Source: Lentisphaeria bacterium
Lineage (GTDB): Bacteria; Verrucomicrobiota; Lentisphaeria; Victivallales; Victivallaceae
Direction: 5' to 3'
Length of the DNA stretch: 34,072 nucleotides
NCBI GenBank assembly: GCA_017450705.1
Contig: JAFSTC010000078.1
Span: 1 to 34,072 of the forward strand
Shown: piece by piece, positions 10,481-27,946 of the stretch
How the letters are laid out: the number at the start of each line of letters is the position of its first letter
Numbering within the stretch: the first letter of the stretch is position 1
Translations under genes and position numbers: made by a program
Notes under the pieces: model-generated
Seen by the model: the letters and a program-made list of their open reading frames with translations, nothing else
Databases searched by the model: none
What the model was told of the DNA's origin: nothing

Positions 10481-11227
10481 TTACTCTGGTATCATAATGT
10501 ATGAAAATTCATCTCCGAATTTCCGAAACAGGCCGTTCTTGAACTTTATACCTACCCAAGCGCAGACCAAGGCATCTAAAGTATCTTCAAAACGCTTCAG
10601 CTGTGTAAACGAAGCATCTTTTTGTAGATTATATTCTTCGGGGAGGCGAATATGAGAACTTAATGCATTACGCAATCTTTGCAAATTCTCATACAGATTA
10701 TCACGTCTCTCTTCCGGAGTCGCTTCCGGCCAGTATCGCTTTCGTTTTCCGACCTTGTAAGGAAGTCTTTTATCCAGCTCAGGAATGAGTGACAAAATTG
10801 CAGGATGCGGATAGGTTTCAATGAGATTGGTATTCAAGATGTAACCACATTCTTTTGCCTTTAACACAAATTCGACGCCAAATTTTGATATCGCCGCGGT
10901 TGGTGTATGTGTAGCACACCATGCTTTGCCAAATTCTTCCGTTATGGCATTGTCCGCCTTTCGCCTTCCGAAAAACGGTTTTGCTGAAATCGGCATATCG
11001 ACAACTATGCAATCGACAGGACCACTTTTTTCGAGTGTTTTTTTTAGATCAAACCGCCCCCCAACGATTTTCCCCTGAAATCTTTCCTGAATGTTTTTGT
11101 CTGAATAAAACAAGTCGAAAGATGGTGCAATATCCTCAAGCTTCCAATCATTGCCTTCCTGCTCAATCAACGCAATTCCCGAAGGTTTCTCCCAAGTCCA
11201 TGCCGGATCAACACCTAATATTCTCAT
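10481..11227 (-). CDS. DUF429 family protein (predicted RNase H-like nuclease)
   Basis: The 248-aa product matches the DUF429 family, predicted to have an RNase H-like fold; its activity is not established. Visible are the first-strand motif GVDPAW...SGIALIE (5-23), the second acidic motif VDCIVVDMPIS (about 71-81), RRKADNAI, ETYPHPAIL and the C-terminal acidic helix EDTLDALVCAWVGI. The spacing of the three acidic motifs fits the family. The ATG overlaps the end of the WYL gene by 20 nt with an AGAGGAAA ribosome site inside it, so the two are co-transcribed and probably coupled. Base use is more AT-rich than in the WYL gene. Confidence 0.88.
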   Translation of the reverse strand: MRILGVDPAWTWEKPSGIALIEQEGNDWKLEDIAPSFDLFYSDKNIQERFQGKIVGGRFDLKKTLEKSGPVDCIVVDMPISAKPFFGRRKADNAITEEFGKAWCATHTPTAAISKFGVEFVLKAKECGYILNTNLIETYPHPAILSLIPELDKRLPYKVGKRKRYWPEATPEERRDNLYENLQRLRNALSSHIRLPEEYNLQKDASFTQLKRFEDTLDALVCAWVGIKFKNGLFRKFGDEFSYIMIPE

Positions 11228-12227
11228 TAATTTCCTCTTGCTTTTTAATCACCTTTTTTGCCTGCGCCGCCACCTTCTCCGCCAGTTCCGGCGGACTCAC
11301 CACCTGCACCGCGCCGCCTTCGTTCAGCACGAGGTTGACGATTTTGAAGTCGATGGCATCGTAAATCGTCACCAGAAGCGAGCCGTCGGGCTGCTCCTCG
11401 ATCTGCGATGGATCGTAATTCTCTTTCGCGTAAGGGATCGCGCAGTCCGTGAAGCGCAGCACCACTTCGTCGATGGTCGGGAAGTTGAACAATTTCCCCT
11501 CGTTGACCTCTTCGATCAGCCGCGGATCCGACTCGAAGCGCCCCGGGTAGATCGCGGCGGTCTTGAACCGGTTCAGTGCGAGGGTGCGGATCGTCCGCTC
11601 CGGCTGGGTTTCTCTGTCGCACGAAACGATGACCGCCTTCACATACCATAATCCGTCATAAAAGGAGAGCACCTGCGGTTCCAGCACATAATCCATGACC
11701 GCGCCGGTCATTCCCTTCTGGTATTTGACCGAGAGTCCGCGCCGGGTCTGCCACGCTTCGAAGACTTCGCGGAAGATCTCCGGTTTGACCGGGATCCTCG
11801 CGCCTTGCGCAACCAGCGCGATCAGCGCGGCGTTGGCATCCATCCCGGACGGATTGTCGCACAGAAGCGTTTCCGCCGCGCTCTGGATCTCCGAAGCGAC
11901 CGGCTCCGGCATGATGGTTTCGGCGAGGCGGGCGCCGAGGGTCACGGCGCGCATTTCGTCCGCTTCCAGCTGCGGGATCTCGAATCTCCAGTTTTGATCG
12001 GTCAGACGATACCCCCGGCGGCCGTTGTCGAAGACGATGGGGGCGCCGTAAACGTCGCGCAGATACTGCACGTCCCGCTGGATGGTCTTCTGCGAAACGG
12101 AATACGTACCGGTCAAGTCCAGGTTTTTCAGGGCCCGTTCCAGCTTCCGGTGGTTGGGATAACTGTTTTTCCGCAGCATCGCCACCAGTTTCATCAGCCG
12201 CGTCATTTTGGGAACATCGCCGGGCAT
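11208..12227 (-). CDS. WYL-domain transcriptional regulator (HTH + WYL)
   Basis: The 339-aa protein has an N-terminal winged helix (about 8-65, with YSVSQKTIQRDVQYLRDVYGAPI as the DNA-recognition part) and a central WYL domain (VLEPQVLSFYDGLWYVKAVI, roughly 175-195), then a C-terminal WCX-like region. WYL regulators bind nucleic-acid or nucleotide ligands in the characterised cases and often control phage-defence genes, for example BrxR/CapW-type proteins. The ATG at 12227 is preferred because GGAGGGG sits directly before it; the longer frame to 12242 begins upstream of that site. It heads the minus-strand accessory cluster and is transcribed from 12272-12300. Confidence 0.92.
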   Translation of the reverse strand: MPGDVPKMTRLMKLVAMLRKNSYPNHRKLERALKNLDLTGTYSVSQKTIQRDVQYLRDVYGAPIVFDNGRRGYRLTDQNWRFEIPQLEADEMRAVTLGARLAETIMPEPVASEIQSAAETLLCDNPSGMDANAALIALVAQGARIPVKPEIFREVFEAWQTRRGLSVKYQKGMTGAVMDYVLEPQVLSFYDGLWYVKAVIVSCDRETQPERTIRTLALNRFKTAAIYPGRFESDPRLIEEVNEGKLFNFPTIDEVVLRFTDCAIPYAKENYDPSQIEEQPDGSLLVTIYDAIDFKIVNLVLNEGGAVQVVSPPELAEKVAAQAKKVIKKQEEINENIRC

Positions 12228-12271
12228 GGTCCCCTCCAACAAACCTGTGATATCATAACGACCCGCCGGCT

Positions 12272-12349: not shown

Positions 12350-12435
12350 CCGCCGTCCCCGCGGGCGCGGACGGTCCGGGGCCTCTTGCTTTTCTTTTTT
12401 TCTAAATATACCGCCGTCCCCGCGGGCGCGGACGG
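12350..12435. repeat. Identical 25-bp direct repeat between two divergent promoters
   Basis: The same 25 bases occur at 12350-12374 and 12411-12435, 61 bp apart. Each copy contains an inverted pair CCGTCC...GGACGG and could form a hairpin or bind a dimeric protein. The repeats lie between the WYL promoter and the promoter of the plus-strand envelope genes. The sequence between them is T-rich (TTTTCTTTTTTTC). Confidence 0.85.
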
Positions 12436-12476: not shown

Positions 12477-12505
12477 TTGACTTTTCGTGCCGTCGGCGTT
12501 ATAGT
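12477..12505 (+). promoter_or_regulatory. Promoter of the LTA-synthase-like gene pair
   Basis: TTGACT (12477-12482), 17-bp spacer, TATAGT (12500-12505). The predicted transcript start near 12512 lies after the ATG codons at 12461 and 12506, which supports the TTG start at 12530. Confidence 0.78.
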
Positions 12506-12529
12506 ATGGATATTTCCCGGAGGTTTGAT

Positions 12530-14365
12530 TTGGCGAACGGACTTTGTCTGGAAGACAAACGCCGATCATGGTGTTTTTTTCTGCTGCTGACAGGGCTTTT
12601 TCTGCTGCCGTACCTGGCGGCGCTCCTGCGGCTCGGTTTCGACATGGTGGCCGACGATCCGGTTTTCTGGTGCGGCCGTCTGATCTTTCCGGTACCCGCG
12701 GCCGCACTGATCTGCGGACTTGTATCGCTTTTTCGCCGCCGGATCGCGCGGCGGATCGTCGCGGTCCTGCTGTGGCTGGGCGTCCAGAGCATCGTCCTGC
12801 TGGAGTGTTTCCTGTTGTGCTTCGCCGGAAAAACCCTTCCGGAGTCCCTGCACGATCACCTGGATCGGCGGGAAGCCGCACGGAGCGGCCGGCGCCCGCT
12901 GAGCGCGCAGTCCGTCTCCCTCTCCGGTTCCCGGAACGCGCCCGTGCTGCGGATCGGCGACATGACTTTGCCGCTGCTCCCGCTCAATCGATTTGACGTT
13001 GTCGGAGCCGAGGTCTCCCGACATGATCGTGACAGGAGTTCCTCGTTTTCATTTTCTTCCGACATGGCTTCGCTGTTTCAAACGTCGCGGCTGGATCCGG
13101 ACGCCGTTCGTTTCCTGGCGGCAAGGCCGGACAGCGTGCTCCATACCCTGCTGGGCGTCCCCGAACGGGACCGTTATCTTCTGTGCGTTCTGCGGTCCGG
13201 CTGGGTCCGCTGCGCAAGCGCCGCCTCGCTTGCCGGACTGCGCGTCGATTTCGCGGATCCCCCTCTCCCCCGCGCGGCGGAAGCCGAATGGGAGATGCGG
13301 GGAAAAATGTTCTTTTTGCGGGGAAACGGCTGGATGATGCCGCTGTTTGCCGCCAACGGCGCGGTCATGTCTTCCTGTGTGATTTTTCTGCCCCGTGCGG
13401 ACGGCGGGGAAAAGGTCCTCCGGATCGATATGAACGATCCCGGGGAAACACGGGAAATTCGGAACATGATGGCGTCCGATGAGTTCACTCTGCTTGCCCC
13501 GCCGGATTCTCCGGTGCATGAGATTCTGCAGATCGCTGCCGGCAACCGGTCCGCCGCCATGCGGGTCCGGGTGGATGCCAAAGGAAAGCGGAGCATGGAT
13601 TTCTTTCCGTTCCACGGCAGACGGGAGCCGGGCATCCTGCGCGATGACCGGCGGTATCTTTATCATGTTTTCGGGAAAACGCCTATCCTGCTGAAGGGGG
13701 AGGCTCCGGATGCCCAGTTCGCCAACGAGCTGGCCCATGTCGTCAAGATCGACGAAGCGACGGGAAGGATCCGGGACGGTTTCTCCTACGCGCGTCCGGA
13801 GTGGTCCCTCGATATGCTGAAGAACCGGTCGTCCGGATTGCGGACGCTGATCTTTTTCGGAAAAAAGGATCCGCTGCTGAAGAAATTCTATCCCGATCTG
13901 GCGATGCGGTCCGTCCTTTTCGTCATCTCTTCGAAAAACATCCGGCACGCCGTGCAGTACCGCAACGGGGATTTCCGGATCCCCAGGCCCGCCGATCCCA
14001 TCGACCCGGGCTGGCCGGTATCGGTCCGCAGGGCGGGGGAATATCTTGTGACCCGCTGGGGCGATGTTTCGTATATCGACCGTTTCGACAGTCTGCGGCC
14101 TTTGCTGGCGGGGGGGGCCGGTTACGTCATCAAGGTCTTCGGAAATGATCTGATCCCGCTGGCCGCGTTCGTTTCCCGGGATCCGGCCTGGGACCAGGAC
14201 ATCGCGACATCGGAAAAGGCGCATTTCGTCTACCTCGGCAGCGACCGGAGCAAGTTCCCCGCGTTGCTGGGACAGCCCGTGCTTGGTAAATATTTTCTGG
14301 CGGTCCGCCGTTACGGCGGCTGGCGTTTTTTCTGGAACGACGAACCGGAATTTTTCATTCCCTGA
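12530..14365 (+). CDS. Membrane protein related to the neighbouring LTA-synthase-like enzyme but lacking its catalytic domain
   Basis: With the TTG start at 12530 the product is 611 aa. This start has GGAGG six bases upstream, lies downstream of the promoter, and lines up exactly with the ATG context of the next gene (GGAGG, six bases, start, then GAACGG shared). Residues 14-97 form three membrane helices closely matching helices 1-3 of the 1045-aa neighbour. From about residue 124 to the end it matches the neighbour from about residue 555 to its end. The two membrane helices and the whole sulfatase-fold domain between (about 430 residues, with all metal ligands and the nucleophile) are missing. 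It therefore cannot be a transferase itself. It may be a partner, regulator or decaying duplicate, yet the frame is fully open. Confidence 0.85.
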   Translation: MANGLCLEDKRRSWCFFLLLTGLFLLPYLAALLRLGFDMVADDPVFWCGRLIFPVPAAALICGLVSLFRRRIARRIVAVLLWLGVQSIVLLECFLLCFAGKTLPESLHDHLDRREAARSGRRPLSAQSVSLSGSRNAPVLRIGDMTLPLLPLNRFDVVGAEVSRHDRDRSSSFSFSSDMASLFQTSRLDPDAVRFLAARPDSVLHTLLGVPERDRYLLCVLRSGWVRCASAASLAGLRVDFADPPLPRAAEAEWEMRGKMFFLRGNGWMMPLFAANGAVMSSCVIFLPRADGGEKVLRIDMNDPGETREIRNMMASDEFTLLAPPDSPVHEILQIAAGNRSAAMRVRVDAKGKRSMDFFPFHGRREPGILRDDRRYLYHVFGKTPILLKGEAPDAQFANELAHVVKIDEATGRIRDGFSYARPEWSLDMLKNRSSGLRTLIFFGKKDPLLKKFYPDLAMRSVLFVISSKNIRHAVQYRNGDFRIPRPADPIDPGWPVSVRRAGEYLVTRWGDVSYIDRFDSLRPLLAGGAGYVIKVFGNDLIPLAAFVSRDPAWDQDIATSEKAHFVYLGSDRSKFPALLGQPVLGKYFLAVRRYGGWRFFWNDEPEFFIP

Positions 14366-14381
14366 TCTTTGGAGGACGGAT

Positions 14382-17300
14382 ATGACGAACGGGGCGGCCC
14401 CGAATGCGACGGGAAACAAAAAGGACTGCGGGCGGCGATTTTTTCTGCTGCTGACGGCGCTTTTTCTGCTGCCCTATCTGCTGGCGGTGCTGCGCCTCGG
14501 GCTCGCGCCGCTGAAGGACGGGCCTCTTTTCTGGTGCGGCCGCGTGCTCTTTCCGCTGAGTGCCGCCGCGCTGATCTGCGGACTCGTATCGCTTTTCCGC
14601 CGCCGGACGGTCCGGCAGGTCGCCGCAGTCCTGCTGTGGCTGGGGGTCCAGGTCTTCATCCTTCTGGAGTGTTTCCAGTTGTGCTTTACCGGCAAATCCT
14701 TCAACGAAGCGTTTTTGATGCATTTTTCGCTGAAGGTCCTGACGGTGGGGCTCAAGTCCGATATGGGAGTATTTGCCGTGCCCGGCGTTCTTTTTCTGGC
14801 CGCGGCCGGATTTGCCGTATGGAAAGTCTCCGCGTCCTTGACCGTTCCGGAACGTGTCCTGAAAAACGCCCTGCTGGCGGCGGCGGGATTTGCGCTCTGG
14901 TTCGTGCCGCAGTCTCCGGTCGTCATCCTGATCTCGCTGATCTGGAACAACTGCCATGTCGTACCGGTCGGTCCGGCGGCCTGTTCGGACGAAGTTCTCC
15001 GGCAGAACGGCATCCATCCCTGCGCCGTCGGCATCCGCGACCTGAAAGCCGAACGGGGCAGGAATCTCGTGTTCATCATCGTCGAGTCCCTGGAGCAGAA
15101 TTATCTCGACCCCCAAAGGTTTCCCGGCCTGATGCCCTGTATGGAAAAGCTGCTGGGAAGCAAGGACGCGCTGTATTTCCAATCCATGCGCAGCGACTCG
15201 AGCAACACCTTCGACTTCCTTTACAAATCTCACATGGGAACGCACATGGAGAGCGTGTTTTCCCCGCAGGAAGCCGGCAAACTGCCGTCCCTGAGCCTGA
15301 TCCTCCAAAAAGCGGGATACCGGTCCAGTTTTCTGAAGGCCTGTTCGCTGGACTTTTCCAACACGAGGGGATTTCTCCGGCAGGTCCAATATCAGCGGAT
15401 GCTCGACTGTGACGCCCCGGAGATCCGGCAGACCGTCAAGGAGATCGGCGCGTGGGGATTTCGGGACTATGACCTGTTTGCCTTCGCGGAGAAGGAATTC
15501 GACCGGCTGGCCGCCGGCCGGGAGCCGTTCATCTTCACGGTGCTCACCGTGGACGGCCATGCGCCGAACGGCGTCCTCGGCAGGAGATCGCTGACCTACC
15601 GTCTGCCGGACGGACGGGAATTTCCTCTGCTTTCCGCCGTCCACACCACCGACGCGGCCATGGGCAAGTTCATCGAGCACATCCGGAACAGTCCGGCCGG
15701 CGCGGACACCGTCATCGCCGTGTCCGGCGACCATCTGGTCATGCAGAACCCCTTCGATGCCGGCGAAACCGTACAGAGTCTGCTCGCCCGCCGGAAGCGG
15801 AACAACGTACTGTGTTTCATGCTCAACGGCGCGCAAAGCGGGGTCGTGGAGCAGCCGTGCTGGACGGTGGACATTGCGCCGGTCCTGCTGGATCAGATGG
15901 GCGTCCGGCACAATTACGTCTTTCCCTCCGGCGTCAACATCCTGAAGGAAAAAGACGATTTTCCGCGCGGCGGCTTTTCCCGGGAACACCTGACTGTCTA
16001 TCTGCGCAGCAAACGGGACGGCAAGGCGCGGTATGCCGCTCCGCTGGACGCGCGCGACGCCGTCCTCGCGGGGAATCGGACCGCGCCCCGGCTGCAGCTG
16101 GGGGATCTGAGCGTCCCGCTTCTCGCGTTCGATCATCACAAAGGGACCATCGGCGTGGAGATCCCCCGCAAAAACAGGGAGAAGACTCTTGAATTTTCTT
16201 TCCGTGCCGATATGACGGCTTTTTTCCAAACCCCCTGGCGGGATCGCGACCTGATCCGCTTTCTGGCGGCGAAGCCGCACAGCATCCTCCACGCCATACT
16301 GGATATCCGCGGCCGGAGCCGGTATCTTCTGTGCGCCCTGCAGTCCGGCTGGGTCAAATCGGCGACCGCCCGGAAGCTCCGCAGACTGAAAATCAAAAAC
16401 TTCGATCTGCCGCCCCCGCGTGCCGCGGCGGCCGACATGGAGCTGAGCGGCGTCAACTTCCGTCTGCGGAAACGGGGCTGGACGCTGCCGCTTTTCTCCG
16501 TCAACGGCGCGTTTTTCCCGCTCCGGGCCGTTGCCTTCCGGCCTCATGCGGACGGGCGGGAGACGGTCTCCCGGCATGACCTCGGCGACAGGGAAGCCGT
16601 CAGGGAACTCCGGAACATGATCTCGTCCCCGGGATCCACGCTGATCGTTCCTCCCGATTCCCCGTTCCACGCGGAACTGGCGGCCGCCGAAGAGGACCGT
16701 TCCTCGGTCATGCGCATCCAGACGGACCGGAAGGGAAAGAGGACGGTGGATTTTTTCCCGTTCCACGGCGATCGCAGATCCTGTATCCTTCATCGCGACG
16801 GCCGGTATTTCTATTATTCTTCCCGCAGAAAGCCGCCGATCGAGCTGGCCGGCGAGGCTGTTTCCGCCGACTTCACGCAGGGAAGCGCCCATGCCGCGGT
16901 ACTGGATGCGGAGAGCGGAGACCTGCGGAGCAGTTTCTCCTTCACCGACCGCGGCCGAGTCGTCAGGATCCTTCTGGAGCGTCCGGCCGGACAGCGGACT
17001 TTGATGATCGTCGGCCGGGGGAATCCTCTGCTGAAAAACGGTTATCCGGATCTGATTTCGCAAAATGTTCTTTTTGCCGTTTCCCCGGACCGCATCCGGC
17101 ACGCCGTGCAGTACGGCAACCGGGATTTCCGTATTCCCCGTCCCGACGATCCGATCGATCCGGCTTGGCCGGTATCGGTCCGCAGGGCAGGTGATATTCT
17201 GGTGGTCCGGTGGGGCGATGTTTCGTATGTCCTGCCGTCCGACGGGCTGCTCCGGCAGTTGGATTCGGGGTTCGGGTGTGCCGTCAAAATTCCCGTCGAA

Positions 17301-17519
17301 AACCAGATCCCCGGGGCGGCTTTCATCTCCAATGATCCGGGCTGGGATCGTGATATCACCCATTCACAGGAAAATTATTACATCTACATCGGCAGCGACA
17401 AAAGCAAATTCCCCGCGCTGCTGGGACAGCCCGTGCTGGGGCAATATTTTCTGGCGGTCCGCCGTCACGACGGCTGGAAATTTTTCTGGAACGACAAGCT
17501 GGAATTTTCCGACCGCTGA
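14382..17519 (+). CDS. LTA-synthase/OpgB-like sulfatase-fold membrane transferase with a long unrecognised C-terminal region
   Basis: The 1045-aa product has five membrane helices (about 19-39, 50-72, 80-103, 129-147, 163-187) and a periplasmic alkaline-phosphatase-superfamily domain (about 225-525). Expected landmarks are GRNLVFIIVESLEQ with metal-ligand E235, the nucleophile candidate T276 in SDSSNTFDF, H393 in TVDGHAP and SGDH (448-451) with metal ligands D450/H451. Family members move glycerol-phosphate or phosphoethanolamine onto envelope glycans or lipids. Residues 555-1045 form a beta-rich-looking region I do not recognise, shared with the upstream gene. The ATG at 14382 has GGAGG seven bases upstream; the gap to the preceding gene is 16 nt, so the pair forms an operon. 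Confidence 0.88.
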   Translation: MTNGAAPNATGNKKDCGRRFFLLLTALFLLPYLLAVLRLGLAPLKDGPLFWCGRVLFPLSAAALICGLVSLFRRRTVRQVAAVLLWLGVQVFILLECFQLCFTGKSFNEAFLMHFSLKVLTVGLKSDMGVFAVPGVLFLAAAGFAVWKVSASLTVPERVLKNALLAAAGFALWFVPQSPVVILISLIWNNCHVVPVGPAACSDEVLRQNGIHPCAVGIRDLKAERGRNLVFIIVESLEQNYLDPQRFPGLMPCMEKLLGSKDALYFQSMRSDSSNTFDFLYKSHMGTHMESVFSPQEAGKLPSLSLILQKAGYRSSFLKACSLDFSNTRGFLRQVQYQRMLDCDAPEIRQTVKEIGAWGFRDYDLFAFAEKEFDRLAAGREPFIFTVLTVDGHAPNGVLGRRSLTYRLPDGREFPLLSAVHTTDAAMGKFIEHIRNSPAGADTVIAVSGDHLVMQNPFDAGETVQSLLARRKRNNVLCFMLNGAQSGVVEQPCWTVDIAPVLLDQMGVRHNYVFPSGVNILKEKDDFPRGGFSREHLTVYLRSKRDGKARYAAPLDARDAVLAGNRTAPRLQLGDLSVPLLAFDHHKGTIGVEIPRKNREKTLEFSFRADMTAFFQTPWRDRDLIRFLAAKPHSILHAILDIRGRSRYLLCALQSGWVKSATARKLRRLKIKNFDLPPPRAAAADMELSGVNFRLRKRGWTLPLFSVNGAFFPLRAVAFRPHADGRETVSRHDLGDREAVRELRNMISSPGSTLIVPPDSPFHAELAAAEEDRSSVMRIQTDRKGKRTVDFFPFHGDRRSCILHRDGRYFYYSSRRKPPIELAGEAVSADFTQGSAHAAVLDAESGDLRSSFSFTDRGRVVRILLERPAGQRTLMIVGRGNPLLKNGYPDLISQNVLFAVSPDRIRHAVQYGNRDFRIPRPDDPIDPAWPVSVRRAGDILVVRWGDVSYVLPSDGLLRQLDSGFGCAVKIPVENQIPGAAFISNDPGWDRDITHSQENYYIYIGSDKSKFPALLGQPVLGQYFLAVRRHDGWKFFWNDKLEFSDR

Positions 17520-17607
17520 TCTCCCGGGAAACGAAGGAACGTGCAGACCGCACTTACCGGTTTGTGTTCGGTCCGAGGCCCGTTTTGTGACCTCGGGAAA
17601 TTCTGCC

Positions 17608-17636
17608 TTGACAAACGGGTGAACCGCAATTACACT
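17608..17636 (+). promoter_or_regulatory. Promoter before the truncated M16C peptidase gene
   Basis: Consensus TTGACA (17608-17613), 17-bp spacer, TACACT (17631-17636). The predicted transcript start (about 17643) is some 43 nt before the first in-frame ATG of the peptidase. Confidence 0.72.
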
Positions 17637-17685
17637 AAAAAGATGCGGGGCAGATCGGGGCGGAACATGTTCACCCGCAGCCGGA

Positions 17686-20013
17686 ATGGGGAGCTCTCCC
17701 ATTTGCCGGGAAGTGACGGGCGCGCTTTACCCCGACACCGTCTACGGTCATGATTCGGGGGGCCGTCCCGGGAAGATCCCCGAACTGACCTACGGGAGAT
17801 TCAGAGACTTCCACAGGCGCTTCTATCACCCGTCCAACGCGCGGATCTTTCTCGACGGCAGCGTGAACATCGCCGATGTGCTCGGAAAGCTGGATGCGTT
17901 CCTCTCGCCCTTCGAGCGGCAGGAGAGCCGGGCGGAGATCGGACTGCAGGCGCCCCTGGAGACCCGCCTGCGGATCCCCTATGCTTCCGCCGCGGTGGAA
18001 GACAAGGCGATCCTGGCCTTCGGATGGTCTGCGGGAACGATGGAGGACGCATCGCACGCCCATGCCGTGGATATCCTCGCCGATTACCTTTGCGGGTCGA
18101 ACGAGGCCCCGCTCAAAAAAGCTCTGCTCGGGCAGGGGGTCTGCAAAGACGCCTCGATGGGCTGTTACGACTACCGGCAGATCCCGCTTTTCCTGGTCCT
18201 GAAGGACACGTCGGAGGAAAACTTCGGCGCGATCCGCAGGATCGTCTGTGAGACGCTCGAACAGATCTGCCGCAGCGGGGTCGACCGCCCGCGGATCTTG
18301 TCCCTCATAGACCGGGACGAGTTTGCCGCGCGCGAAATGAATTCGAGCCGTCCGGCGGGGCTTGCCTACTTCTCCCGCGTTCTTCGGCAGTGGCTCTACG
18401 GCGGGGAGCCTGCTGCCGCGCTGGATACGACCGGGATATACGGGCGGCTGCGTTCCGGCGCGGAAAGGGGACTTTTCGAGGGCATCATCCGCGAACGGAT
18501 CCTCGAAAACGGCCATCGCGCCGAGATCGGTTTCATTCCCGATCCGGCCCTCGCCGGGCGGATGGCCGCCGAGGACAGGGCCGAAATGGAGTCCCGGCGG
18601 CGGAAGTTGTCCCCGGACGAATTGCGTGCGATCGCCGGGGAGGTTTCGGCGCTGAAGGCCTGGCAGGGCAGGGACGATCTCCCGGAGGATATCGCAAAGA
18701 TCCCCGGGATCGATCCCGGGGATCTGTCCCCCGCGGGCTCGCCCGCGGAGGGGACCGTGGAGACGGCGGCCGGCGTGACGCGGATCGTATCCCGGCCGAC
18801 GGCGGCCGGGATTTTCTATCTGGAGCTTTACTTCCCCGTCGACGATCTCCCGGCCGGAGATCTTGTCGAGCTGCCGCTTTTCGCGCGGCTTCCCGGCAGG
18901 CTCGGGACATCCCGCCGTTCCGCCCTGGAGCTGCAGACGCTCATCGCGGCGAATACCGGGAGACTTGTCTGTTCGACGGTTTCCACGAAGCGGGGGCGGT
19001 ATTTCAAGGTCTCCGTCGCGGCGCTCGCCGGAAAGGCGGCGGCGGCTCTGGAACTGGTGAAGGAAGTGCTCTTCGAAACGCGGTTCGACGATGCCGGGGA
19101 GATCGAAAAGATTCTGCGCCAGAAGCAGATCTCCGCGGAGCGCGAAGTCTCGAACGACGGGCGGGCCCTGGCCCTGCGCGCGGCGCGGCGCGGGTTCGCC
19201 GAACGTTGGGCGGCGGCCGACATCCTGTACGGCGAACGGCAGCTGCGCTGGCTGCAGGCGCAGAAAACCGATGACGGGCTCATCGGCCGGTTCGGGGACA
19301 TGCCCGGCCGCCTCTTGAAACGGGAGGGGCTGATCGTCTCCCGGACGGAGAATCTCCCGGAGGGACTCCTCGATCCGCTGCTGGCGGCGCTGGATCCCGG
19401 GAAACGGGGCGCCCCGGTGCGCATCCCGGCGGCGGCCGACTGCCCGCGGGCTTTTCTGATCGACGGGGACACGGGATTTTCCGCCCGGGTCGTCCCGCTG
19501 CCCGGCGGCATGCCGGTGACCGGGGCGATGCACGTGGCGTCGCGGATCCTTTCCCTCGGGTATCTCCACCGCGAAATCCGTGAGATCGGGGGGGCTTACG
19601 GCGTGCACATGCGCGTGACCCCGAACGGGCTCGTCGAGTGCACGTCTTACCGGGATCCCCGCCCGTTCGGGAGTCTGGAGAAGATGGCCGGGATCGGTCC
19701 TGCGCTCCGCACGTTCGTCGGGTCGGGCGCAGACATTGACCGTTTCGTGGTGGCGACCGCGGCCTCTCTGGAACCGTATCGCCCGCCGGCTGACGCGGCC
19801 TTCCTTTTTGCCGATCTGTACATGGATGAACGGACCCCGGAGGATGAAGAACGCATCCGGCGCGAGGTCCTGGCCACGACGAAGGCGGATCTGCTGCGCT
19901 TCGCGGAACTGCTGGAGACGCTCCCGTCTTCCGCAACGGCCTGTGTCGTCGGAGGCGAAAGACAGCTTTCGGGCTGTGACGCCGCGCAGATCCGGCCGGT
20001 CGTCCGCAAGTAG
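17686..20013 (+). CDS. M16C (PreP-type) peptidase, missing the zinc-binding N-terminus
   Basis: The 775 residues match the presequence-protease branch of the pitrilysin/insulinase family: ALYPDTVYGHDSGG (13-26), LTYGRFRDFHRRFYHPSNARIFLDG just after, an M16C-associated middle linker, and a C-terminal GGAYGVHMRVTPNG. Full-length PreP proteins are roughly 970-1000 aa. Here the sequence begins where the family is normally about 200 residues in, so the HxxEH zinc site and its second glutamate are absent. No good ribosome site precedes the ATG at 17686, although a consensus promoter lies 50 bp upstream. The rest of the frame is intact. The simplest reading is a deletion joining the promoter to the middle of the gene; a non-catalytic surviving protein is possible. 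Confidence 0.75.
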   Translation: MGSSPICREVTGALYPDTVYGHDSGGRPGKIPELTYGRFRDFHRRFYHPSNARIFLDGSVNIADVLGKLDAFLSPFERQESRAEIGLQAPLETRLRIPYASAAVEDKAILAFGWSAGTMEDASHAHAVDILADYLCGSNEAPLKKALLGQGVCKDASMGCYDYRQIPLFLVLKDTSEENFGAIRRIVCETLEQICRSGVDRPRILSLIDRDEFAAREMNSSRPAGLAYFSRVLRQWLYGGEPAAALDTTGIYGRLRSGAERGLFEGIIRERILENGHRAEIGFIPDPALAGRMAAEDRAEMESRRRKLSPDELRAIAGEVSALKAWQGRDDLPEDIAKIPGIDPGDLSPAGSPAEGTVETAAGVTRIVSRPTAAGIFYLELYFPVDDLPAGDLVELPLFARLPGRLGTSRRSALELQTLIAANTGRLVCSTVSTKRGRYFKVSVAALAGKAAAALELVKEVLFETRFDDAGEIEKILRQKQISAEREVSNDGRALALRAARRGFAERWAAADILYGERQLRWLQAQKTDDGLIGRFGDMPGRLLKREGLIVSRTENLPEGLLDPLLAALDPGKRGAPVRIPAAADCPRAFLIDGDTGFSARVVPLPGGMPVTGAMHVASRILSLGYLHREIREIGGAYGVHMRVTPNGLVECTSYRDPRPFGSLEKMAGIGPALRTFVGSGADIDRFVVATAASLEPYRPPADAAFLFADLYMDERTPEDEERIRREVLATTKADLLRFAELLETLPSSATACVVGGERQLSGCDAAQIRPVVRK

Positions 20014-20126: not shown

Positions 20127-23100
20127 TCAGGCGACGGCCGAGACGCGGATGAACGTATCCGCAAGTTCATCGATCTTCAACGGCTTGTTGATGTGTCCGT
20201 TCATGCCGGCCTTCAAGGACTTTTCCCTGTCTTCCGCGAAGGCGTTGGCGGAGAATGCGATGATCTTGAGTTTGTCTCCGCCGGGGAGTTTTCTGAGGAG
20301 CGCCGTCGCCTCGTAACCGTTCATCACAGGCATCTGCACATCCATCAGGATGAGATCGTAAGCGCCGACTCCCTGCTCACGGATCGTGTCGACGGCGATC
20401 TGGCCGTTCTGCGCGGTATCGACGATCATGCCCTGTTCCTGGAGCAGCAGCACGCCGATCTTGAGATTGAGTTTGCTGTCGTCGACCATCAGGACCTTTT
20501 TGCCCCTCAACGCGGAGAGCCGCTCCTCCCGGTCCGTCTGACCGGAATCCGCTTTCCCGAGGGACTGCAGGAGCACCTTTTTCAGATCCGACGGGAAGAA
20601 CGTGTCCGGGATCGTTCCCGTGGCGCCCGCCTCCCGGGCCTCTTCCCTGATGTCGTCGCCGCTCTGTTCGGTCAGGATGAAAACGGACGCATCCGGGCCG
20701 GCGCATTTGCGTATGCGGCGGGCCGTTTCGATCCCGTCGATATCCTCCAGCGGCCGGTCCACGACGTAGACTGCGAAGGGGTCGCCCTGCCGCAGGGCAT
20801 CCTCCGTGTAAGAGACGGCATCCTTGCACGAAACGCGCCATTCGCTGCGCAGACCGAGCTTCCGGAGCATGTCGGCGATGCGCTGACAGGCGTCGGCTTT
20901 GCCGTTCACGACCAGGGCGCGCACGCCCTTCAGTTCCGGGATCGCCGGATCGGAGGATTTTCCGGCAGGCAGCCGGAGATCCAGCGAAACGATGAATTCG
21001 CTCCCTTCACCCTTCTTCGTGACGACGGATATCCTGCCGCCCATCGTTTCCACGATGTTCTTGGTGATCGTCATTCCCAGTCCCGTGCCCTGGGTGTCGG
21101 AAACGGCCGCGTTCTCCTCCCGCGCGAAGGGATCGAAGACTCTCGCGGCAAACTCTTCGCTCATGCCGATGCCGTTGTCCTTCACCCTGAATTCGAACGC
21201 GCCGCGGCCCGGAGCTGCGGAGGGTTTCTGTTCGATCCGCACCGAGATCGTGCCGCCCTGGGGCGTGTATTTGACGGCGTTGGAGATCAAATTGAGCAGC
21301 ACCCTGTTCAGGTACAGTCTGTCGCAGTAGACGAGCTCGTCCCGGACGTTTGCCGCGTCGATGAGGAAATTCTGCCGTTTCGCCCGGACGTCCGCAAGGA
21401 CGATGTCCCGGATCCCGTGCAGGATGTCCGCCAGGGACTCGACTTTTTCGTTCAGCGTGATCTTGCCGGATTCGATGCGGCTCATGTCCAGCACGTCGTT
21501 GATCAGCGAAAGGAGGTGTTCCGAGGACTGTTTGATGGTTGCCAGACTGTCCTTGACCCGTTCCGTGTCGTCGATATGGTTTTCCGCGAGACCCGTGAAC
21601 CCGATGATCGCATTCATCGGCGTGCGGATGTCATGGGACATATTGCTCAGGAACATCGTTTTGGCCCGGTTGGCGGCCTGCGTCATCTGCAGGGCCTCCT
21701 CGAGTTCGTTCTGCTTCTTTTCCAGCTGCTCCCTCAGTTCGGACTCCTGCTGTCTCTGATTTTCGATGGTCCTGGTATACTCCACCAGCTGCCGGTTCGT
21801 TTCCTCAAGCCGGACGCCTGCGGCCTCTTTCTCGGCCATCCGGCGTCTCGTGCGCCTGGCATCCCTCACGAGGAGGGCGATGATGACGGCCGAGCCCGCG
21901 AGGAATACCGAAGAAAACAGACCCAGATGGTCGAAGAACACGTCCGTCAGCCGGTAGGAATACAGCATGTGCGTGTAGCGGTGCGACTTTTTCTGCACAT
22001 AGTCCCTTCCGATCACGCCGAGACCGCGGTTCAGAAGTTTCAGGAGACCTTTTTCACCGATCCCCACGCCGAAGCAGCGTTCGTCTTTCTGGGCAAGATG
22101 GTGCAGGGAGAGTGTGTCGTATTTTCTGTTTTTCAGGATATCGTGGGCGCGCAGGCCGTTCAAAATGGTGCAGGTGACTTCGCCTGCGAGCACCGCCTCG
22201 AGACAGGCTTCGATGGAGGGGTACTGCGTCACCTTGGCCTTCGGAAAGTTTTTGGCGACGAAGTAATACTGCATGCGGTTGTTTTTGTTGACCGCGAAAT
22301 GGCTTGCCGTCTTCTCCGAATAGGCGCCTTTATACACCAGTTCCGAGGCCATGGAGGTCACGGGGATCGATTGGTACAGCCCGTTTTTTTCCGAGAAATA
22401 CAATCCGCCGCCCACGGGGAACGCCACGTCGATCCGGCCCGCCGCCATGTCGGCGATCATAGTGTCGTAACTCTCGTAACCCGAGTAGATGACCTCCAGA
22501 CGCGAGATCGCCAGCTGGGCGAGGATCTCCCGGAGGATGTCCTTGACGACGCCCGTCACCTGGCCGTTCGGATCTTTCCCGCTGTAGGGCATGTAATTCT
22601 CCAGAAATCCGACCCTGAGGGTGCGGTGCGTCCTCAGCCATTGTTTTTCGCTCCGGGAGAGGGCGCGCGTCAGGATGCTCTTCGGATAATATTTCGTGTT
22701 CAGGCCGGGGATGAAACTCGGTTCCTCCACCGCCAGCACCGACTGGGCTTCGTTGAGCTTGGCCAGCAGATCGGGCCGCCTGATGTTGACGCAGACGAAA
22801 TAACTGGAACCGCCGAACGGCACGAGGACCTCGGTATTGCTGCGTCCGTAGGCGCCGTTGCCTTCGGCGGCCAGGACATCGAGTTTGCCCGAGTCGAACG
22901 CGGCGAAGAGCAGCGGGTAGTCCTTGAAGACCTCGACCTTGGCGGTGACGCGGTTTCTCGCCAGAAAGCGGTTCAGGGCGTCCAGCAGGGCGCTGTCCAG
23001 CACGCCGATGGTTTTTCCTTCCAGTGTCTCCGGATTGCCGGTGATGCTGTCGTCGCTGCTGTGTTTCACGAGGTTGTATGATTCGCTCCCCATGGGAGCC

Positions 23101-23555
23101 TCGGGGTATCCGATCAGGCCCAGACGTTCCGGTTTCTTCGCCAGACCGGCCAGCAGGTCGATCTTGCCGTCGAGGAGCATTTTGTACAACTTGGCGTATT
23201 CCCCGTAGACGTATTCGTATTTCCAGCCGGTGTACTCCGACAGTTTCTGGTAGTACTCATAGGCATACCCGCTTTTCATGGCGTCTTCACGGGCGCCCTC
23301 CTGAAAGATCTCGTTCTCGTAGTAGCCGACCCTGACGGTGTCCCGTCCGTCGGCGGAGACGGTCGCGGGGAGGATAAGGGCAACGGTCATGACCGCGCAC
23401 AAAAAGCCCGCGAGAGATTTGCGCAGACTTTTCGCGGCAGGGCGTTCCGGGCCGAAGCAGGACGGTATTGTGTGTGACAGCAAAATATTATTTTCCAAGA
23501 TGTTGCGCCTTTTTTTGCGGGATCCCGACAGCAGTTTCTTCACCATGGCGACCAT
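20127..23555 (-). CDS. Hybrid sensor histidine kinase with two periplasmic solute-binding domains and two receivers
   Basis: The 1142-aa protein has a long N-terminus with a signal-like hydrophobic segment (about 48-66), two tandem SBP_bac_3-type (amino-acid-binding-protein-like) sensor domains (about 73-300 and 315-540), one membrane helix (about 560-582) and a coiled coil (590-630). HisKA follows with phospho-acceptor H641 in FLSNMSHDIRTPMNAIIG, then an HATPase domain (NAVKYT, DNGIGM, GTGLGM) and two receivers. The second receiver is canonical (VDD, D1072 in LMDVQMP). The first keeps a candidate D933 in VVDRPLEDIDG, but the acidic pair is replaced (VVNGKAD). This is EvgS/BvgS-like architecture without PAS. 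The start at 23555 has AGGA three bases away; the ATG nine bases on is an alternative. Confidence 0.92.
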   Translation of the reverse strand: MVAMVKKLLSGSRKKRRNILENNILLSHTIPSCFGPERPAAKSLRKSLAGFLCAVMTVALILPATVSADGRDTVRVGYYENEIFQEGAREDAMKSGYAYEYYQKLSEYTGWKYEYVYGEYAKLYKMLLDGKIDLLAGLAKKPERLGLIGYPEAPMGSESYNLVKHSSDDSITGNPETLEGKTIGVLDSALLDALNRFLARNRVTAKVEVFKDYPLLFAAFDSGKLDVLAAEGNGAYGRSNTEVLVPFGGSSYFVCVNIRRPDLLAKLNEAQSVLAVEEPSFIPGLNTKYYPKSILTRALSRSEKQWLRTHRTLRVGFLENYMPYSGKDPNGQVTGVVKDILREILAQLAISRLEVIYSGYESYDTMIADMAAGRIDVAFPVGGGLYFSEKNGLYQSIPVTSMASELVYKGAYSEKTASHFAVNKNNRMQYYFVAKNFPKAKVTQYPSIEACLEAVLAGEVTCTILNGLRAHDILKNRKYDTLSLHHLAQKDERCFGVGIGEKGLLKLLNRGLGVIGRDYVQKKSHRYTHMLYSYRLTDVFFDHLGLFSSVFLAGSAVIIALLVRDARRTRRRMAEKEAAGVRLEETNRQLVEYTRTIENQRQQESELREQLEKKQNELEEALQMTQAANRAKTMFLSNMSHDIRTPMNAIIGFTGLAENHIDDTERVKDSLATIKQSSEHLLSLINDVLDMSRIESGKITLNEKVESLADILHGIRDIVLADVRAKRQNFLIDAANVRDELVYCDRLYLNRVLLNLISNAVKYTPQGGTISVRIEQKPSAAPGRGAFEFRVKDNGIGMSEEFAARVFDPFAREENAAVSDTQGTGLGMTITKNIVETMGGRISVVTKKGEGSEFIVSLDLRLPAGKSSDPAIPELKGVRALVVNGKADACQRIADMLRKLGLRSEWRVSCKDAVSYTEDALRQGDPFAVYVVDRPLEDIDGIETARRIRKCAGPDASVFILTEQSGDDIREEAREAGATGTIPDTFFPSDLKKVLLQSLGKADSGQTDREERLSALRGKKVLMVDDSKLNLKIGVLLLQEQGMIVDTAQNGQIAVDTIREQGVGAYDLILMDVQMPVMNGYEATALLRKLPGGDKLKIIAFSANAFAEDREKSLKAGMNGHINKPLKIDELADTFIRVSAVA

Positions 23556-25523: not shown

Positions 25524-25607
25524 ATGTTTGAAAAAGGCTTCGAATCGGACGAACGGACGCTTCCCTTGCCGGATTTTCTCCGGCGGAAAATGAGGGGTGC
25601 GGCATGA
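25524..25607 (+). CDS. Small upstream ORF (27 aa), overlapping the kinase start
   Basis: The frame opens with ATG at 25524, AGGA nine bases upstream, and encodes a charged peptide beginning MFEKGFESDERTLPLPDFL. Its TGA overlaps the ATG of the hybrid kinase (ATGA at 25604-25607), and the kinase ribosome site GAGGGG lies within it. This arrangement is typical of translational coupling or a regulatory upstream ORF. I recognise no homologue. Confidence 0.5.
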   Translation: MFEKGFESDERTLPLPDFLRRKMRGAA

Positions 25608-27946
25608 CTTACTCGATCATCGGGATACTGGCGGGGATCATTCTGGTCATCACGAATCGGGACGTCCTGTGGCTGACGGGAAGTTCCGGGTCTTCACAGA
25701 TCCTGCGAAAATACCGCAGTTTCCTCTTTGCCGTTCTGGCTTACTACATCACCGATGCCCTGTGGGGCATTCTGGATGCCCATCGCCTCACATCTCTTCA
25801 GTTTCTCGACACGACGCTGTATTTCGCGGCGATGGCGGTGCTGGTCCTGCTGTGGACGCGGTACGTCATAGCCTATCTGGAAGGCAACACCTCGTTCGAC
25901 ACCATGCTGTGGTACGGCGGATGGGCTTTTTTCGGATTCGAAATCATCGTCATCATATCGAATCTGTTTTACCCCGTCATGTTCTGGTTCGACGAATCGG
26001 GGACTTATCATACGGCGGTTTTGCGGCATACCACGCTCTACGTGCAGATACTGATGTTTCTGCTGACATCGCTGTACACGTTCGGCATAACCCGGAAGAC
26101 CAGGGGGAAAGTCTGGCGGAGGAATCTCGCCATCGGGTTGTTCGGCTCCTCGATGATCGCCCTGATCGTTCTCCAGCTCCTTTACCCGCTGTGGCCGTTT
26201 TACGCCATGGGATGCATGGTCGGGACTTGTCTGCTGCACAGTTTCGTCGTCGAAGACGAGAAGGAAGAATACCGCAATGAGCTGGAGGAATCGCTGCAGC
26301 GCGAACAGGGGCAGAAAGAGGAGCTGGCCCGGAACCGGGAAGTGCTGCAGACGGCGCTTGCCGCAGCGGAGTCCGCCAACAAGGCGAAAACCACCTTTCT
26401 CTCCAACATGAGCCACGAGATCCGCACGCCGATGAATGCGATCATCGGGCTGAACAGTCTGGCGCTGAGGGACGGAACGCTTTCGGAGACGACCCGCGGG
26501 TACCTGCAGCAGATCACCGGAAGCGCAAAGCATCTGCTGGGACTCATCAACGATATCCTCGACATGAGCCGCATCGAATCCGGGCGGCTGGTCCTGCGCA
26601 AGGAGCACTTTTCCCTCAACGGGCTCCTCGAGCAGATCAACACCCTGGTCGTGGCCCAGTGCCGCGAAAAGGGCCTCTCCTTCACCTGCCGCATCGACGG
26701 TCCGGTGGAAGACCGCTACATCGGCGACGACACGAAACTCAAACAGGTGCTGATCAACATCCTCTCGAACGCCATCAAATTCACCCAGGCGCCGGGGAGC
26801 GTCTCGCTGAACATCGAACAGGTCAACGTTTACGGGGATCAGGTCACGCTCCGGTTTTCGATCCGCGACACGGGCATCGGCATCGCCGAAGATTTCATTC
26901 CCAGGATCTTCGAACCGTTCACCCAGGAAGACAGCAACCGGAACAACAAGTACGGCAGCACCGGGCTCGGCATGGCCATCACGAAAAATATCGTCGAACT
27001 CATGAACGGCATGATCCAGGTCAAGTCCGAAAAGGGCGTCGGGTCCGAATTCATCGTGACTGTCACGCTGAAAAGAAGCGATGCGCCGGATGCCTCGCTT
27101 CATACCGTCAGCCCTGAAGACATGCACGTCCTGATCGTGGACAACGACCCCATCGTCTGCGAGCACGCTTCCATCGTCATGGATGAGGCCGGCATCCGCG
27201 CCGACACGGCGCTGTGCGGCAAAACGGCGCTGGACATGCTCGAAGTCCGGCATGCCAAGCACGATCCGTACAATCTCGTTCTGCTCGACTGGAAAATGCC
27301 GGAAATGGACGGCGTGGCCGTCGCAAAGGAGATCCGCAAGCGTTACAGCAGCGAGACGACAGTCATCATCCTCACCGCATACAATTGGGACGAGATCATG
27401 GACGAGGCGCTGCATGCCGGCATCGACAGTTTTCTCGCCAAGCCGCTGTCCGCAGCCAAGGTGATCGAGGAATTCACGAGGATCGCCAAGCGCAGCAGCA
27501 TGAAGGAGCTGTCCGAAAAGAAGCGCGCCGACCTCAAGGGCAGGCGCATCCTGCTGGCGGAGGATATCCTGATCAATGCGGAGATCGTCAAGGAGCTCAT
27601 CCATTCGCAGGGAGCGGAGATCGATCACGCCGAAAACGGCAGGCTTGTCACGGAAATGTTCGCCCGAAGCGAACCGGGGTACTACGATGCGATCCTCATG
27701 GATGTCCGCATGCCGGAAATGGATGGACTCGAGGCGACTTCCGCGATCCGCGGCATGGATCGTCCGGATGCCCGGACCGTTCCCGTCATCGCCATGACCG
27801 CGAATGCCTTCGACGAGGATGTGCAAAGTTCCCTTCAGGCAGGGATGAACGCTCATCTTTCCAAGCCGGTGGATCCGGAACATCTTTTCCGGACACTGGA
27901 GGAGATCATCTGGGAAAAAGAAAACAACACACTGAACGCACGGTGA
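25604..27946 (+). CDS. Multi-TM hybrid sensor histidine kinase with two receivers
   Basis: The 780-aa protein begins with about seven membrane helices (1-220) and no visible periplasmic or PAS sensor domain, then a coiled coil (220-260). HisKA follows with phospho-acceptor H271 in FLSNMSHEIRTPMNAIIG, and an HATPase domain with NILSNAIKFT, DTGIGIAE and GSTGLGMAI. Two receivers come last, with phospho-acceptor candidates D562 (LLDWKMPEMDG) and D700 (LMDVRMPEMDG). Receiver 1 keeps a VDND acidic patch; receiver 2 has AED. It lacks an Hpt domain, which the gene at 32129 could supply. The next kinase gene starts 6 nt after its stop. Confidence 0.93.
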   Translation: MTYSIIGILAGIILVITNRDVLWLTGSSGSSQILRKYRSFLFAVLAYYITDALWGILDAHRLTSLQFLDTTLYFAAMAVLVLLWTRYVIAYLEGNTSFDTMLWYGGWAFFGFEIIVIISNLFYPVMFWFDESGTYHTAVLRHTTLYVQILMFLLTSLYTFGITRKTRGKVWRRNLAIGLFGSSMIALIVLQLLYPLWPFYAMGCMVGTCLLHSFVVEDEKEEYRNELEESLQREQGQKEELARNREVLQTALAAAESANKAKTTFLSNMSHEIRTPMNAIIGLNSLALRDGTLSETTRGYLQQITGSAKHLLGLINDILDMSRIESGRLVLRKEHFSLNGLLEQINTLVVAQCREKGLSFTCRIDGPVEDRYIGDDTKLKQVLINILSNAIKFTQAPGSVSLNIEQVNVYGDQVTLRFSIRDTGIGIAEDFIPRIFEPFTQEDSNRNNKYGSTGLGMAITKNIVELMNGMIQVKSEKGVGSEFIVTVTLKRSDAPDASLHTVSPEDMHVLIVDNDPIVCEHASIVMDEAGIRADTALCGKTALDMLEVRHAKHDPYNLVLLDWKMPEMDGVAVAKEIRKRYSSETTVIILTAYNWDEIMDEALHAGIDSFLAKPLSAAKVIEEFTRIAKRSSMKELSEKKRADLKGRRILLAEDILINAEIVKELIHSQGAEIDHAENGRLVTEMFARSEPGYYDAILMDVRMPEMDGLEATSAIRGMDRPDARTVPVIAMTANAFDEDVQSSLQAGMNAHLSKPVDPEHLFRTLEEIIWEKENNTLNAR

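Follow-up and report, generated by a model that had tools for sequence, protein, structure and literature searches.

A catalytic-domain-less paralogue of an OpgB-like enzyme in a Lentisphaeria bacterium, and its possible role as a membrane-anchored partner

Two adjacent genes of a gut Lentisphaeria bacterium encode proteins that resemble each other at both ends, and only one of them possesses the catalytic domain that lies in between. Is the shorter gene, here called P1, a maintained non-enzymatic partner of the full-length gene, P2, or the product of a recent deletion that has yet to decay? The window, the whole 34,072-nucleotide stretch analysed here, is one entire contig (JAFSTC010000078.1) of a draft metagenome-assembled genome of 117 contigs (GCA_017450705.1), and contains the following features around the start of the two genes.

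11208-12242, - strand: gene for a WYL-type regulator, divergent from P1
12353-12374, unstranded: 22-nt palindrome CCGTCCCCGCGGGCGCGGACGG, copy 1, in the gap that separates P1 from the divergent WYL regulator; candidate operator
12414-12435, unstranded: second copy of the palindrome, 61 bp downstream from the first; candidate operator
12477-12505, + strand: sigma-70-like promoter for P1-P2, TTGACT-17-TATAGT, 10/12 matches
12519-12523, + strand: P1 Shine-Dalgarno sequence GGAGG, 6 nt before TTG 12530
12530-14365, + strand: P1, TTG start, TGA stop, 611 aa; catalytic-domain-less paralogue with three TM helices and four FAM3-like modules
14371-14375, + strand: P2 Shine-Dalgarno sequence GGAGG, 6 nt after the P1 stop and six bases upstream of ATG 14382
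14382-17519, + strand: P2, ATG start, 1045 aa; full-length OpgB/LtaS-like protein with five TM helices, a sulfatase-fold domain and four modules

The two genes are separated by 16 nt. The TTG codon at 12530 aligns with the ATG of P2 and the ribosome-binding sites are homologous; because both genes share a GGAGG six bases upstream as well as similar flanks, TTG 12530 is taken to be the correct start of P1. The first-pass annotation had placed P1 at these coordinates with this start, and had described its frame as intact; both descriptions hold, as the 611 codons contain neither a stop nor a frameshift. It had also credited P1 with the better promoter position, in agreement with the sigma-70-like promoter at 12477-12505, at whose expected transcription start an ATG (12506) is located, and with a search of the P1-P2 intergenic gap that found no promoter before P2. 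The 22-nt palindrome occurs as two exact copies, within the window only at this site, where shuffled sequences yield an expectation of 0.

Comparison of the two proteins defines what P1 has kept and what it lacks.

12557-12823, + strand: P1 membrane anchor TM1-3 (aa ~10-98), 64% identical to P2; helices in the model and by hydropathy
12830-12895, + strand: P1 junction linker (aa ~101-122), where P1 lacks ~424 aa that are present in P2
14697-15971, + strand: P2 segment without P1 counterpart in the alignment (TM4-5 and catalytic domain)
15060-15905, + strand: P2 catalytic domain, PF00884, E 2.8e-14; conserved E235, T276, H393, D450 and H451
15972-17516, + strand: P2 linker and four-module C-terminus

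The earlier description of P1, in which helices 1-3 and a C-terminal region of ~490 residues are retained and helices 4-5 and the catalytic region are missing, is borne out by protein alignment: TM1-3 are 64% identical and the C-termini 51% identical over 489 aa, with hardly any gaps, and P2 residues ~106-530, comprising TM4, TM5 and PF00884 at 227-508, have no P1 counterpart. P1 has no Pfam or NCBIfam match, and the sulfatase-fold domain with its E, T, D and H metal/nucleophile residues is absent. As in LtaS and OpgB, a homologous N-terminal TM bundle is present, but with three of the five helices only. Hydropathy yields five TM helices for P2 and three for P1, and the loop charge pattern is consistent with an N-in, C-out orientation; removal of two helices would therefore leave the C-terminal ectodomain of P1 periplasmic, as in P2. 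Within the junction region (12791-12925) the longest exact match to P2 is 13 nt, and neither a direct repeat nor near-identical flanks were seen. A search of the genome for further copies of P1 or P2 found none. P1 and P2 are tandem in-paralogues, P1 being a lineage-specific duplicate of a P2-type gene from which TM4-5 and the whole catalytic domain were removed in frame, at domain boundaries, after or along with the duplication. Gene conversion between the two was considered but is not claimed: identity is patchy across all sites (permutation p<0.001), but neither the longest runs (p 0.14) nor synonymous windows (p 0.12) depart significantly from expectation. The sole other PF00884 open frame of the genome (L025:5815-9456, - strand; 1214 codons including upstream in-frame sequence) encodes several hydrophobic stretches, and an ABC exporter/HlyD-like pair is located a few kb away.

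To which family does the full-length enzyme belong? NCBIfam models of phosphoglycerol transferase I/OpgB match P2 at 2.4e-35 and 2.2e-28, versus 4.4e-11 for LtaS, and BLAST aligns P2 228-507 with residues 163-446 of E. coli OpgB (b4359) at 29% identity (E 4e-26). At 122 bits the OpgB match falls short of its equivalog cut-off of 572, as all NCBIfam matches of P2 fall below theirs, so that P2 shares the OpgB domain as a related domain and the score gives no orthologue call. The catalytic domain also aligns to the LtaS structure 4uoo (2.8e-10), and the conserved residues listed above form nucleophile- and metal-site motifs whose equivalents serve those sites in LtaS. The initial label of LTA-synthase-like is corrected here: by NCBIfam the P2 domain is nearer to OpgB/MdoB phosphoglycerol transferase I, and LTA synthase was dropped as the best label because OpgB-type models score higher. 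OpgB uses phosphatidylglycerol as the donor of the phosphoglycerol that it adds to periplasmic glucans (PMC3818809). A structure model of P2 was discarded for its low quality (pLDDT 53).

The C-terminus shared by the two proteins consists of four tandem modules of ~120 aa, an organization newly recognised here. The AlphaFold2 model of P1 (mean pLDDT 78) contains four consecutive units with a similar order of secondary structures.

12896-13267, + strand: P1 module 1, FAM3/POMGnT1-stem-like fold, Z 7.0 to 5ggj (model residues 125-245)
13268-13615, + strand: P1 module 2, carrying an invariant PPDSxxH
13616-14002, + strand: P1 module 3, FAM3-like fold, with an invariant HxxQxxNxxFRxP
14003-14362, + strand: P1 module 4, whose profile matches the single module of the G045 enzyme (E 1e-5)

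A likeness of module 3 to FAM3/ILEI had been spotted from sequence ahead of any fold search. Structural alignment with VIA-align placed the POMGnT1 stem (Z 7.0), FAM3C (6.8) and TMEM2 (5.2) at the top, with unrelated structures at 4.9 or less; module 3 (residues 364-488) matched TMEM2 8c6i at Z 5.2 and FAM3C 5lc4 at Z 4.3. Modules 1 and 3 were thus matched independently to the beta-beta-alpha fold of the FAM3 type, a Z below 8 alone being no proof, and Foldseek assigned a probability of 0.99 to 5ggl. Searches of the modules gave no PF15711 or FAM3 match at E up to 10 and nothing pertinent among Pfam and PDB sequence profiles, and PF15711 had no match across the order. As a lead at the level of fold, the model points to FAM3/ILEI and the POMGnT1 stem as the nearest known fold of the modules. 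GlcNAc is among the sugars that FAM3-type domains bind, with R129, D179 and R207 named as GlcNAc-contact residues of POMGnT1, and the animal FAM3 proteins are module-only relatives of that enzyme (PMC9802357). The modules of P1 and P2 may likewise bind carbohydrate, a guess drawn from the modelled fold.

Four-module C-termini were found in just three genomes of the genus: the one studied here, G022 (Lentisphaerae MAG SIG90), which has two unlinked four-module genes, and G013 (RGIG5592, from sheep colon). The first-pass annotation had proposed a search for the same pair in relatives. None was found among 197 genomes of the class or in phage and plasmid records, and the three other four-module genes are solitary and full-length (1039-1053 aa). 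Seventeen further Lentisphaeria OpgB-like proteins (L026:1353-3401 and L057-L072) end in one module of ~110 aa that belongs to no Pfam family and is homologous to module 1 by hhalign (92.5%, E 5e-7), with a weaker alignment to module 4 (78%). These enzymes have the TM and catalytic plan in common with P2; unlike P1, they are encoded by solitary genes and retain the catalytic domain in 17/17 cases, and no P1-like gene was found in the neighbourhoods of 20 OpgB-like relatives. The single module is widespread, and the four-module tandem would be a local expansion; the form without a catalytic domain is so far unique to P1. The E. coli OpgB C-terminus was rejected as a homologue of the modules, since it gave just one weak match, to module 2. 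Because no relative has the pair, P1 could have been full-length until a recent loss of its catalytic domain.

The dN/dS check proposed in the first-pass annotation bears on this question, and it came out in favour of constraint. Between P1 and P2 the C-terminus has a pairwise omega of 0.32 (dS 1.3). On the P1 branch of a five-gene tree its codon omega is 0.34, neutrality (omega 1) is rejected (2dlnL 6.3), and there is no difference from the P2 branch (2dlnL 0.43). P1 and P2 together have an omega of 0.40 versus a background of 0.17, the latter being rough owing to saturation with the outgroups, and for TM1-3 alone (101 codons) neutrality is not rejected. Protein branch lengths for the C-terminus are 0.53 in P1 and 0.48 in P2, with individual modules similar; 109 C-terminal residues do not vary among the three other four-module genes, of which P1 has kept 62 residues and P2 64, and the corresponding figures for TM1-3 are 16/25 and 15/25. 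The P1 ectodomain is under purifying selection and evolves as slowly as that of P2. Under simulated neutral change the probability of a stop-free frame is 0.06 at 0.08 substitutions/site and 0.03 at 0.10; measured against the P1 branch length of ~0.7, these low values imply that any neutral phase probably occupied less than about 12% of the branch. In module 1 of P1, 5/11 invariant residues have changed versus 5/53 elsewhere (p 0.01, post hoc); relaxation of this module is not claimed, as two of the changes are K to R and its branch length is not raised.

A gene immediately downstream calls for caution in reading an intact frame as evidence of function.

17686-20013, + strand: M16C peptidase gene without the N-terminal zinc domain, breakpoint ~17706

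This gene misses its first ~190 codons, including HXXEH, and G005 and G025 have complete orthologues that are 79 and 78% identical to it. The G025 locus consists of a leader matching 17589-17712 of the window, followed by a TIR-like gene and then by the M16 gene. In the window this TIR-like gene has been lost, and its promoter and leader run directly into M16 codon ~193. A GCCGGGAA/CGGGAA microhomology marks the join, which, set against the G025 gene order, implies a deletion of ~4.8 kb. With omega on its branch still at 0.16, the remnant is under purifying selection, and thus either the deletion happened recently or the truncated gene still functions. Since the lineage forms deletions that leave open frames, the intact frame of P1 alone proves little. 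Farther along the window, an amino acid permease carries fused histidine kinase and receiver domains (27953-30733, + strand), adjoined by two more hybrid histidine kinases (20127-23555, - strand; 25604-27946, + strand), and a 67-bp stretch near the contig end (33662-33728), apparently a conserved C-terminal gene end, is 92.5% identical to G025.

We favour the reading, at a probability of roughly 0.5, that P1 has been maintained as a partner of the P2 transferase, anchored in the inner membrane and devoid of catalytic function. Its most serious competitor, which we regard as possible though the less likely of the two, is that P1 encoded another full-length transferase until not long ago and lost its catalytic domain in frame by chance, with decay pending. 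The recent cut in the adjoining M16C gene provides a local precedent, relatives have full-length genes only, and the equal rates of P1 and its full-length twin are what a young loss predicts; yet the loss in P1 preserves both the reading frame and the parity of TM helices and coincides with domain boundaries, the junction lacks a direct repeat or near-identical flanks, and the frame without stop or frameshift limits the neutral phase. The precision of the boundaries, the preserved topology, the shared operon and the normal constraint are the reasons for which the partner reading is preferred. Against it, the pair is seen in no other genome and is thus without comparative support for its function, and P1 could have passed most of its branch as a full-length enzyme. 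The earlier proposal that P1 is functional rather than debris passed every test run; given the absence of the pair from relatives and the possibility of a recent loss, it is partly supported.

Other explanations appear less probable. P1 could serve a function separate from P2, as a membrane-anchored glycan sensor or an adhesin-like periplasmic lectin; its modules are intact and conserved, it has its own promoter, and the module-only animal FAM3 proteins offer a parallel, but the 16-nt gap, the failure to find an internal promoter and the matching anchor helices suggest joint use, and we consider a separate role improbable. More improbable again is a dominant-negative or decoy role, in which mixed oligomers or competition for glycan would limit phosphoglycerol transfer by P2, although P1 does have the anchor and modules of P2 and is predicted to be made first from the same promoter. 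That P1 is an artefact of metagenome assembly is scarcely credible: the window is a single whole contig of a fragmented draft, but P1 has diverged from P2 on either side of the junction, no more than 13 nt are shared there and the frame is kept, so that misassembly is without support from the junction comparison.

The best form of the partner reading is that P1 is a glycan-binding or scaffold helper co-transcribed with P2. P2 would act like OpgB, with phosphatidylglycerol as the phosphoglycerol donor and a glycan of the periplasm or cell surface as the acceptor; the OpgB-like domain and FAM3-like fold of P2 suggest that its four modules would hold this acceptor. P1 would add four more modules at the same membrane site, perhaps pairing with P2 via the shared TM1-3 or the modules, and would capture, align or retain the acceptor. 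A split envelope-modification system, in which an OpgB-like enzyme and a partner with an excised catalytic domain form an eight-module acceptor platform, is a tentative extension of this model.

Known systems supply partial parallels. OpgB/MdoB, like P2, has few TM helices, a periplasmic sulfatase-fold domain and an additional C-terminal region, but it possesses the catalytic domain that P1 lacks, and the four-module C-terminus was not found in E. coli OpgB at the sequence level. LtaS/LtaP (lipoteichoic acid synthase/primase) share five TM helices, the catalytic fold and the metal/nucleophile motifs with P2, although LtaS matches P2 less well than OpgB does, P1 has no catalytic part, and LtaS is not known to have a four-module tail. 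PbgA/YejM, an inner-membrane relative of LtaS/EptA with a regulatory role, differs from P1 in retaining the sulfatase-fold domain. FAM3 and POMGnT1 stand to each other as a module alone to a TM-module-enzyme protein, parallel to P1 and P2; FAM3/ILEI, the POMGnT1 stem and TMEM2 nevertheless differ from the bacterial tandem of four, which has no sequence match to them and belongs with another enzyme class.

Stripped to an anchor and ectodomain modules and yet constrained by every rate measure, P1 amounts to a clean natural experiment on the role of the non-catalytic regions in LtaS/OpgB-type enzymes. The FAM3/POMGnT1-stem-like fold occurs in signalling proteins and a glycosyltransferase of animals; the modules themselves may represent its use as an accessory domain by bacterial phosphoglycerol transferases, which, if true, would link that fold to bacterial glycan handling.
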